Assembly (NCBI GenBank): GCA_027064585.1
Contig: JAMOPI010000010.1
Location: forward strand, 1-64,000
DNA: 64,000 nt
Source: Candidatus Desulfofervidaceae bacterium
Lineage (GTDB): Bacteria > Desulfobacterota > Desulfofervidia > Desulfofervidales > Desulfofervidaceae
Direction of reading: 5' to 3'
Shown here piece after piece: positions 4,429 through 58,242 of this stretch. The translations under genes and the position numbers were made by a program. Below the pieces are notes generated by a model. The model searched no databases. It was not told the DNA's origin and was given only the letters and a program-made list of their open reading frames with translations. Position 1 is the first letter of the stretch. Each line of letters opens with the position of its first letter.

Positions 4429-4717
4429 CCCAAAATCCGCAATTACCCGACAAGAAATCCCGTAAGTGTGCTGTAATAAACAATTTTTTTAAAAAATACC
4501 TTTCGCCTAAAAGGTGAAAAATTTATCTTTTCCTCAAGATCAATCATAATTATAGCGCCTTCGCTCGCTCATGCGGTCAAGGGCAAGCCCGAAGGGCGCA
4601 GCAAGCGTAGACCCTTGACCATCTAACGAGGCCTTGGCGTATAATTTTTTGTAAGTAAGGAGGAAGGAAAACTCATCAATTTTTGCGGAATACTATAAAT
4701 CAATCGCGGATTTTGGG
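4429..4717. repeat. Dispersed TIR element, copy 1 (289 bp, internally deleted)
   Basis: The shortest copy of a three-member family in this window. The ends are imperfect inverted repeats: CCCAAAATCCGCAATTA at 4429-4445 and CAATCGCGGATTTTGGG at 4701-4717. Inside are the TTTCGCCT/AGGTGAAA palindrome near 4501-4519 and one stem-loop with arms GGTCAAGGG and CCCTTGACC (4575-4620). Relative to the other two copies about 200 bp are missing between the first and second GGTCAAGG boxes, as if these had recombined. No coding sequence is seen. It fills most of the 404-bp gap between two divergent genes. Confidence 0.85.
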
Positions 4718-17923: not shown

Positions 17924-18000
17924 TGGCGGGGCCGACGAGACTCGAACTCGCGACCTCCGGCGTGACAGGCCGGCGTTCTAACCGTCTGAACTACGGCCCC
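17924..18000 (-). tRNA. tRNA-Asp (anticodon GTC)
   Basis: On the minus strand the acceptor arms GGGGCCG and CGGCCCC pair fully, with discriminator G and an encoded CCA (77 bases). The anticodon stem CCGGC/GCCGG holds the loop CTGTCAC, anticodon GTC. The T-arm has GTTCGAGTC. It is followed by a terminator. Confidence 0.96.
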
Positions 18001-18018
18001 GCAATAATCTGCTCTCAA

Positions 18019-18093
18019 TGGTGGGCGGAACAGGGCTCGAACCTGTGACCTTCGGCTTGTAAGGCCGACGCTCTCCCACTGAGCTATCCGCCC
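18019..18093 (-). tRNA. tRNA-Val (anticodon TAC)
   Basis: On the minus strand the acceptor arms GGGCGGA and TCCGCCC pair, with discriminator A and an encoded CCA (75 bases). The anticodon loop is CTTACAA within a CGGC/GCCG stem, so the anticodon is TAC. The T-arm has GGTTCGAGCCC. It is 18 bases upstream of tRNA-Asp and probably in the same transcript. Confidence 0.96.
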
Positions 18094-35432: not shown

Positions 35433-35474
35433 TGCCTTGCAAGGCTAAAGGGAAAAAGGAGGTTTGTCAAGGAG

Positions 35475-35965
35475 CCCAAAATCCGTGATTGCCCTTCAAA
35501 AACCCCACAAGTTGCTTGTCATAAAGCGATTTTTTAAAAAATACCTTTCACCTAAAAGGTGAAAAACATTTATCTTTCCCTTAAACCCAGTCATAATTAT
35601 AGCGCCTTCGCTCGCTTATGCGGTCAAGGCCAAGCCCTACGGGTGGCCTTTGGCCAGCCTTGACCTCGCTCGCTACGGCGCTTTTTTCTTTTTGAGGCCA
35701 GAAGGAAAAGAAAAATTCTTTTTCCCCTTTCCTCCTTCCGATTTTCCTTTTTTGCCAGGGCCGAGGGCGGTCAAGGGCAAGCCCGCAGGGCGCAGCCTGC
35801 CCAAAGGGCAGGTCGGAGCGAACGCAGTGAGCGTAGACCCTTGACCGTATAACCGAGGCCCTGGCATATAATTTCCTAAAAAGGAGAAGGGATAATGCTG
35901 GCATTTTTCTTAATTCCTTCCTCATCTCAAATATCCTTCTTTAAAAATCAATCACGGATTTTGGG
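35475..35965. repeat. Dispersed TIR element, copy 2 (491 bp) with 5-bp direct repeats
   Basis: The ends are perfect 17-bp inverted repeats, CCCAAAATCCGTGATTG (35475-35491) and its complement (35949-35965). AGGAG flanks both sides (35470-35474, 35966-35970) and looks like a target-site duplication. Inside, in order: palindrome TTTCACCT-AAA-AGGTGAAA (35546-35564); stem-loop 1, AGCGCC/GGCGCT enclosing GGTCAAGG/CCTTGACC (35601-35682) followed by T6; stem-loop 2, GCCAGGGCC/GGCCCTGGC enclosing GGTCAAGGG/CCCTTGACC and CCTGCCC/GGGCAGG (35754-35865). No convincing gene is inside; short open frames on both strands follow the palindromic sequence. It fills the gap between divergent uvrD-like and GT9 genes. 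Confidence 0.88.
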
Positions 35966-35979
35966 AGGAGAGAAAAAGG

Positions 35980-36909
35980 ATGCAATTGCTTATCGTTCAC
36001 CTTGGGGCCTTGGGGGATATGCTTTTATCCAGACCTAGCCTTTTGGCCATAAGAAGGCACTTTGCCCAGGCCGAGATAGACCTTTTAGGCTATCCTCATC
36101 TCCTCTCCCTGATCCGTTATGAAATGCAAGTCAGGCAGATTTATAATTTAGAAGATGTTCTTTTTACCCTTTATACAAATGCAAATAAGGCCTTTTGGCA
36201 GCGTTATGACCTCATTGTTTTCTTTGCTCGCCGCCTAGATCCAGACTGGCAAAAAAGTTTAGGCCGGACAGAATTTATTTTTATCCAAACCGTGCCCCCA
36301 CCAGGGATAAGGCGGCCGGTATTTGCGTATCAACTGGAACAATTGCGAAAATACGGTCTAAAGGGGCAAATTTCCTTTGTTCCTTTGGCCCTTCCACTCT
36401 CAAAAGATACACAGCGAGAAGGTTTTGATTTGCTTATTCATCCTGGCAGCGGCAGTCCTTCTAAAAACTGGCCGGTTTCTTATTTTACTGAGGTGATAAA
36501 GGCCTTTTCTTCTTTTCGCCTTGGGCTTATTGTTGGCCCGGCCGATAAGGAGGTGGCTAAGGTATTGTTAGCGCGTCTTCAGGACAATGATGTCTTAAGG
36601 CGACCCCGCCTGCTTCAGGACCTCAGCCTGCCTGCGCTTGCTCAAAAGATGCGTAACGCTCATCTCTTTCTGGGCAATGACTCTGGTGTTACCCATCTGG
36701 CCGCAGCCTTAAATCTTCCGACCTTTGTTATCTTTGGCCCAACGGATCCTCATCGCTGGCGTCCATGGGGAAAGCATGTAAAGATTTTTGCCCCTAACCT
36801 TGCCTGTGCCCCATGTGAGGAGAAAAGAAGGGAATGTACAGAAAGGCAATGTTTAAAGGCCATCAAGCCTAAAGAGGTAATAGAAACCATCTTAACTGCC
36901 ATTCACTAA
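35980..36909 (+). CDS. GT9-family (heptosyltransferase-like) glycosyltransferase
   Basis: A 309-residue GT-B enzyme. MQLLIVHLGALGDMLLSRPS is the typical start with the GDxL motif, LIHPGSGSPSKNWPVSYF binds the ADP-sugar, and FLGNDSGVTHLAAALNLPTFVIFGPTDP is the conserved GND(S/T)G block. Such enzymes add heptose to the lipopolysaccharide inner core. A Cys-rich end (LACAPCEEKRRECTERQC) is common in the family. The GGAGGAGAG ribosome binding site is the right-hand AGGAG of the repeat element, so the promoter must be inside that element. Confidence 0.9.
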   Translation: MQLLIVHLGALGDMLLSRPSLLAIRRHFAQAEIDLLGYPHLLSLIRYEMQVRQIYNLEDVLFTLYTNANKAFWQRYDLIVFFARRLDPDWQKSLGRTEFIFIQTVPPPGIRRPVFAYQLEQLRKYGLKGQISFVPLALPLSKDTQREGFDLLIHPGSGSPSKNWPVSYFTEVIKAFSSFRLGLIVGPADKEVAKVLLARLQDNDVLRRPRLLQDLSLPALAQKMRNAHLFLGNDSGVTHLAAALNLPTFVIFGPTDPHRWRPWGKHVKIFAPNLACAPCEEKRRECTERQCLKAIKPKEVIETILTAIH

Positions 36910-40479: not shown

Positions 40480-40510
40480 AGCATATAAAGCTCCCTGTAA
40501 GGGAGCAGGT

Positions 40511-40696
40511 GCTGTCTAGGTGCCCTTTGGGCTTAATAGGGAAGTCCGGTGAAAGTCCGGTGCGGTCCCGCCGCTGTAACCGGGGACGAAACCCACAAAA
40601 GGCCACTGGGGTCTTTAAGGCCCCGGGAAGGCGTGGGGAGTAGGACGATCCGGAAGCCAGAAGACCTGCCTAGGCAGCCTTTTCTTGCTGCCTAAG
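40511..40696 (+). ncRNA. Cobalamin (B12) riboswitch
   Basis: The core is unmistakable: TTAATAGGGAAGTCCGGTG, AAAGTCCGGTGCGGTCCCGC, CGCTGTAACC, GGCCACTGGG and the B12 box GGAAGCCAGAAGACCTGCC (40652-40670). P1 is GCTGTCTAGG (40511-40520) with CCTAGGCAGC (40669-40678), one G-U pair. The 3' arm of P1 could instead pair with GCTGCCTA (40687-40694), and a terminator follows at 40744. It would reduce expression of the BtuB-like receptor and perhaps BtuF when adenosylcobalamin is plentiful. Confidence 0.95.
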
Positions 40697-57748: not shown

Positions 57749-58242
57749 CCCAAAATCCGTGCTTGTCCTTCAAAAACCCCACAAGTTGCTTATCATAAAG
57801 CTATTTTTTAAAATAGCCTTTCACCTAAAAGGTGAAAAACATTTACCTTTTCTTCAAGACCCAATTATAATTCTAGCGCCTCCGCTCGCTTATGCGGTCA
57901 AGGCCAAGCCCTACGGGTGGCCTTCGGCCAGCCTTGACCTCACTCGCTACGGCGCAATTTTCTTTTTGAAGCCAGAAGGAAAAAGGAAATTTTCTTTTTT
58001 CCTTTCTCCTTGCGATTTTCCTTTTTTGCCAGAGCCGAGGGCGGTCAAGGGCAAGCCCGCAGGGCGCAGCCTGCGCTTAAAGGCGCAGGTCGGAGCAAGC
58101 GTAGCGAGCGGAGACCCTTGACCGTATAACCGAGGCCCTGGCATATAATTTCCTAAAAAGGAGAAGGGATAATGCTGGCATTTTTCTTAATTCCTTCCTC
58201 ATCTCAAATGTCCTTCTTTAAAAATCAATCACGGATTTTGGG
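57749..58242. repeat. Dispersed TIR element, copy 3 (494 bp)
   Basis: The ends are CCCAAAATCCGTGCTTG (57749-57765) and CAATCACGGATTTTGGG (58226-58242), one mismatch. The interior is collinear with copy 2: TTTCACCT/AGGTGAAA palindrome, stem-loop 1 with GGTCAAGG/CCTTGACC, stem-loop 2 with GGTCAAGGG/CCCTTGACC. At the tip of stem-loop 2 it has CCTGCGC/GCGCAGG (58070-58089) where copy 2 has CCTGCCC/GGGCAGG, a compensated pair. No flanking direct repeat is evident. A ribosome-site-like AAGGAGAAGGG and ATG at 58172 open a 36-codon frame that leaves the element and ends at 58282. It lies between divergent secA and rng. Confidence 0.88.

Follow-up and report, generated by a model that had tools for sequence, protein, structure and literature searches.

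Correia repeat enclosed elements of Neisseria are high-copy, non-autonomous MITEs that have terminal inverted repeats (TIRs), lie immediately upstream of genes and carry sigma-70-like promoters (PMC10969869). In the IS1380 family of insertion sequences, IS1247 is 1,672 bp long (IR 16/13, DR 5; PMC3281130), and outward promoters are present in two other members, ISEcp1 and ISPme1 (PMC9330008; PMC3281130). Here we describe repeats in a 64,000-nucleotide stretch of DNA (the window) from the 1.92-Mb genome of a sulfate-reducing Candidatus Desulfofervidaceae bacterium and conclude, with a probability of about 0.92, that they are a non-autonomous MITE family derived from an IS1380-family insertion sequence. 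This is a new MITE family, and a bacterial MITE family now has a clearly identified parent family; we found no description of an IS1380-derived MITE in the open-access literature.

The family resembles Correia elements in its high copy number, TIRs, lack of autonomy and location upstream of genes, but its ends are unrelated to theirs, being derived from IS1380, and its large cassette contains two hairpins and symmetric motifs. Whereas Correia elements carry promoters, the motifs described here are promoter-like. Correia elements duplicate TA, unlike the present family, which duplicates 5 bp of target. The TIR length and the 5-bp duplication match those of the IS1380 family (IS1247, ISPme1 and ISEcp1), and a DDE transposase (PF13701) is found at the same ends in relatives; however, the MITEs have no transposase gene, are typically 137–496 bp long instead of about 1.6 kb and have an added hairpin cassette. 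The ends of the Chunjie MITE of Geobacter uraniireducens and of other bacterial MITEs are not known to match those described here. In size range and size heterogeneity, the family is similar to Chunjie and other bacterial MITEs (PMC10969869).

Window copies and genome-wide copy number

The 17-bp TIR CCCAAAATCCGYGATTG is common to all three window copies (Table 1), and six matches to it with up to three mismatches occur in the window, compared with 0.20 expected; none of 100 shuffles reached six. The initial annotation had reported three copies, and both this number and the coordinates are correct for the window, as are the palindrome TTTCACCTAAAAGGTGAAA, the hairpins with GGTCAAGG/CCTTGACC arms and the AGGAG on both flanks of one copy, which is the 35475–35965 copy, second by position. 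As a total, three does not stand: the search that the annotation had proposed, with the 491-bp copy and the 17-bp end, returned many further copies, amounting to 46 BLAST matches for the former and 131 matches for the latter (up to two mismatches; a reversed control pattern gave 0).

Exact target duplications are absent at the other two window copies (57749, CAAGG/AATAC; 4429, AAAGA/TATTT), and in the 4429 copy one of the two hairpins has been lost or fused. At the right end of the 35475 copy (window 35880–35980), we observed AAGGAG...ATAATG, together with a small reading frame extending out through the TIR towards the downstream gene. Rfam covariance models gave no match at the element; a cobalamin riboswitch (RF00174) and two tRNA genes lie elsewhere in the window (40501–40687 and 17927–18093).

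Table 1 Features of the three window copies
Feature	Position	Strand	Description
35475 copy	35475..35965	+	Full-length type, 491 bp: left end, hairpin 1, linker, hairpin 2, right end; flanked by uvrD (-) and heptosyltransferase gene (+)
57749 copy	57749..58242	+	Second full-length-type copy; flanked by secA (-) and RNase E/G (+)
4429 copy	4429..4717	+	Short type, 289 bp, single fused hairpin; flanked by CDP-alcohol phosphatidyltransferase gene (-) and gyrA (+)
Target-site duplication, left of 35475 copy	35470..35474	.	AGGAG
Target-site duplication, right of 35475 copy	35966..35970	.	AGGAG
35475 copy, left TIR	35475..35491	+	
35475 copy, right TIR	35949..35965	-	
35475 copy, left end	35475..35566	+	About 92 bp; homologous to IS1380-family parent leader, stops just before transposase start
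Palindrome	35546..35564	+	TTTCACCT-AAA-AGGTGAAA; probable relict of hairpin in parent's transposase leader
Outward TATAAT towards left end	35596..35601	-	20 bp from TTGACC (minus strand, 35622–35627) in hairpin 1
Hairpin 1	35602..35681	+	Outer arms GCGCC/GGCGC, inner arms GGTCAAGG/CCTTGACC
Hairpin 2	35754..35865	+	Outer arms GCCAGGGCC/GGCCCTGGC, inner arms GGTCAAGG/CCTTGACC; compensatory changes among copies
Outward TATAAT towards right end	35867..35872	+	20 bp from TTGACC (35841–35846) in hairpin 2
35475 copy, right end	35891..35965	+	75 bp; homologous to 3' non-coding end of IS1380-family remnant in relative G002
57749 copy, left TIR	57749..57765	+	1 mismatch
57749 copy, right TIR	58226..58242	-	
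4429 copy, left TIR	4429..4445	+	3 mismatches
4429 copy, right TIR	4701..4717	-	1 mismatch

Element mapping covered about 509 kb of DNA around TIR sites and recovered 101 copies or fragments, 45 of them with both ends and some consisting of single ends or fragments. Two-ended elements are mostly 137–496 bp in length, and typical copies contain no transposase. Types include a left end, two hairpins and a right end (about 450–496 bp), a single fused hairpin, as in the 4429 copy (about 245–330 bp), hairpin 1 only (about 280–290 bp), and the ends only or nearly so (137–189 bp). The copies fall into two subfamilies, distinguished by their right ends and by pairs in the hairpins. Exact 5-bp target-site duplications were found at 6 of the 45 two-ended clusters (shuffled mean 0.24, maximum 3), among them the AT-rich sequences TATAT, ATTTT and GTTAA; because so few are kept, most insertions are probably old or altered.

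A further insertion sequence, bounded by TAGTCATCCCTGAAAAAC / TAGTCGTCCCTGAAAAAC, has split several copies of the MITE or of the parent, and at these points it also breaks the assembly (L048 1–620, the starts of L086, L089 and L051, and the ends of L099, L050 and L030). Its choice of target may be non-random, and its first 55 amino acids gave no match in Pfam.

An IS1380-family parent

In relative G002, a TIR-bounded element of 1,169 bp has coding sequence for the C-terminal portion of a PF13701 (IS1380-type) transposase, and has left-end, palindrome and right-end sequence in common with the MITE. When nine genomes were searched for PF13701, six places were found, in G002, G003, G005 and the window's own genome (G000), all of them partial and all beside the same ends. 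In G000, the 5' start of the parent is on contig C19, where another insertion sequence interrupts it; a 3' part is at C9:24269-25272; and a 3' end at C8 is interrupted by an IS256-type element. The IS256 fragment at C8 was itself considered as the parent and rejected as a separate insertion sequence within the IS1380 remnant, and two 4-kb TIR pairs in G002 were discarded as autonomous transposons, as their reading frames, inspected by eye, show no transposase. The C9 part (L094) is a composite remnant, in which what we call by eye an IS3-type integrase C-terminal frame is fused within IS1380 ends.

The initial annotation had advised looking for an autonomous transposase with the same ends; it is of the IS1380 family, present only as fragments in this assembly, and an intact relative occurs in Desulfobacterium SW.3.97 (L199 1098–2698). 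This relative is 1,601 bp long, has matching ends and encodes a transposase of 429 amino acids (PF13701, E 8.8e-40), and G041 holds the start of another such insertion sequence, the N terminus of which was recognized by its similarity to L199. No intact parent was found in the G000 assembly, and a protein scan of genome_contigs with the transposase fragment gave no relative; an intact parent could be hidden, because the assembly breaks at repeats. With its parent broken in this assembly, the family seems to be mostly a relict.

At its left end, the MITE corresponds over 92 bp to the parent leader, as seen in both the G002 remnant and the C19 parent start, and the sequences diverge just past AGGTGAAAA; at its right end, 75 bp match the remnant in G002. 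We propose that the leader end of the parent (~92 bp) was retained, together with these 75 bp of right end in one subfamily, and that a hairpin cassette replaced the transposase gene. The parent transposase would recognize the 17-bp ends, probably move the copies in trans and duplicate 5 bp of target.

In four IS1380-type leaders (G000, G002, G041 and Desulfobacterium L199), inverted sequence is located at or adjoining the Shine–Dalgarno sequence of the transposase gene, and the predicted folds contain a clear leader stem in three of the four. We infer that the stem may be a translation-control hairpin, with the TTTCACCT/AGGTGAAA palindrome as its inner part in this family.

Other Deltaproteobacteria, Troglogloeales and Sedimenticola also have small elements that end in these 17 bp and have apparent duplications of 4–5 bp (L177, L186, L187, L191 and L193); apparent 5-bp duplications are seen, for example, at L177 (GGTCA), L187 (TTTCT) and L193 (AACGA). 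IS1380-type MITEs may be widespread.

Mobility and gene order

The MITE-like, non-autonomous nature that had been guessed from the window is borne out by a family that is multi-copy and TIR-bounded, makes 5-bp target-site duplications, has no transposase and is absent, or nearly so, from a genome of the same genus (G001), in which no TIR match with up to one mismatch was found. A one-sided empty site is seen at uvrD, where the G001 homology spans the leader and ends 3 bp short of the 35475 copy; the element is missing there, but only the left flank is informative, because gene order differs and G001 has the opposite flank at another location. The mostly intergenic location of the copies, upstream of housekeeping genes, would also be expected of a host regulatory repeat that stays at fixed sites. 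The target-site duplications, the IS1380 remnants with the same ends, the near absence from G001, the one-sided empty site, the varied sizes and deletions, and the presence of elements in several genera all argue against such a repeat, which we consider extremely improbable.

Relative to G001, gene order in window 24200–64000 is split into short blocks, and the breaks are mostly at element-free sites. Recombination between copies was considered as the cause and rejected: the 35475 and 57749 copies are at synteny breaks, yet many breaks involve no element. No reciprocal swap of target duplications between copies was found.

Gene context and outward promoter-like motifs

Copies are located in 43 divergent, 30 tandem and 3 convergent gaps, compared with 24, 72 and 27 for element-free gaps (simple ORF calls), and stricter ORF filters gave divergent:convergent ratios of 28:5 and 20:3. 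In the window, each of the three copies is flanked by divergent genes, among them uvrD, secA, RNase E/G and gyrA.

Both sides of the cassette have outward promoter-like motifs. An exact outward TATAAT is present on 46 of 64 left sides and 47 of 60 right sides, 19–20 bp from a TTGACC in the hairpin arm, and exact TTGAC–TATAAT pairs are nearly always spaced by 19 or 20 bp on both sides. The homologous inner sides of the hairpins lack TATAAT. Column identity of the two boxes (0.93 and 0.98) is above the mean of 0.85, and copies in G004 (same family) have the same motif arrangement, with 20 bp.

We hypothesize, by analogy with Correia elements and with the IS1380 members that have outward promoters, that the cassette could act as a Correia-like portable promoter pair, with which an element could insert in a divergent gap and leave both neighbouring genes expressed; this role is possible but doubtful. 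A more specific version, in which the cassette would be a mobile, symmetric bidirectional promoter (a hairpin-arm −35 box for each strand and a TATAAT outward on each side) that, through insertion between divergent genes, now drives transcription at dozens of loci (gyrA, secA, RNase E/G and uvrD among them), we regard as unlikely. The spacer of 19–20 bp exceeds the usual 16–18 bp, a promoter scan found no such site, and TATAAT is kept no better on sides that face gene starts (61/90) than on those that face gene ends (25/33; p=0.51), for which reasons promoter function is treated here as hypothetical. This last comparison gave no sign of selection on the outward TATAAT, and no excess of host promoters with a spacing of 19–20 bp was seen.

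There is, in our estimate, an even chance that these are plain MITEs without function, and that their bias to upstream sites reflects insertion by an IS1380-type transposase that favours AT-rich or open promoter DNA, with TATAAT and TTGACC hitchhiking in the cassette. This would compete with the promoter proposal only, not with the derivation from IS1380. The equal retention of TATAAT is consistent with an absence of function, as are the equal orientations in tandem gaps (15:15) and the AT-rich sequences among the exact target-site duplications. Yet the small elements sampled in G002, which have the same ends and no cassette, show little divergent bias (divergent:convergent 10:4 compared with a background of 12:9; p=0.045 for G000 versus G002). 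The retention of TATAAT on outward sides only also argues against plain MITEs, and background divergent gaps are no longer than convergent ones.

The promoter proposal is of interest because it can be tested and because, under it, core genes of an uncultured group may have gained promoter DNA from a mobile element. The Candidatus Desulfofervidus group includes syntrophic partners of methane-oxidising archaea.

Structure of the hairpin cassette

Across copies, six pairs in the hairpin arms are changed on both sides, and 97.2% of cells are paired; 25 hairpin cells are double-changed, compared with 10.2 after shuffling. The covariation mostly separates the two subfamilies and therefore counts as few events. 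Such compensatory changes, together with a T-run after hairpin 1 on the + strand, would suit a cassette that serves chiefly as a structural device in RNA or DNA (a terminator, insulator or mRNA stabilizer, as proposed for REP/BIME) instead of a promoter. However, convergent positions, which would be expected for terminators or stabilizers, are avoided, a terminator scan of the 35475 copy found none, and the subfamily split weakens the covariation; we judge a mainly structural role to be quite improbable.

REP/BIME are likewise GC-rich palindromes in intergenic DNA, whereas here the palindromes are within a TIR-bounded element: 50 of 50 GGTCAAGG...CCTTGACC hairpins were inside elements in the sampled DNA, which was drawn around TIRs, and others may lie elsewhere in the genome. 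With none outside elements in that sample, we set aside the idea that the hairpins are a separate repeat in G000.

G002 also has a similar hairpin, with GTGTCAAGGC/GCCTTGACAC arms, that is not part of a TIR element (L238, about 1500–1580; L239, about 1577–1640). Its two occurrences belong to a duplicated gene region whose copies are inverted relative to each other, and a hairpin of this kind is a possible source of the cassette.
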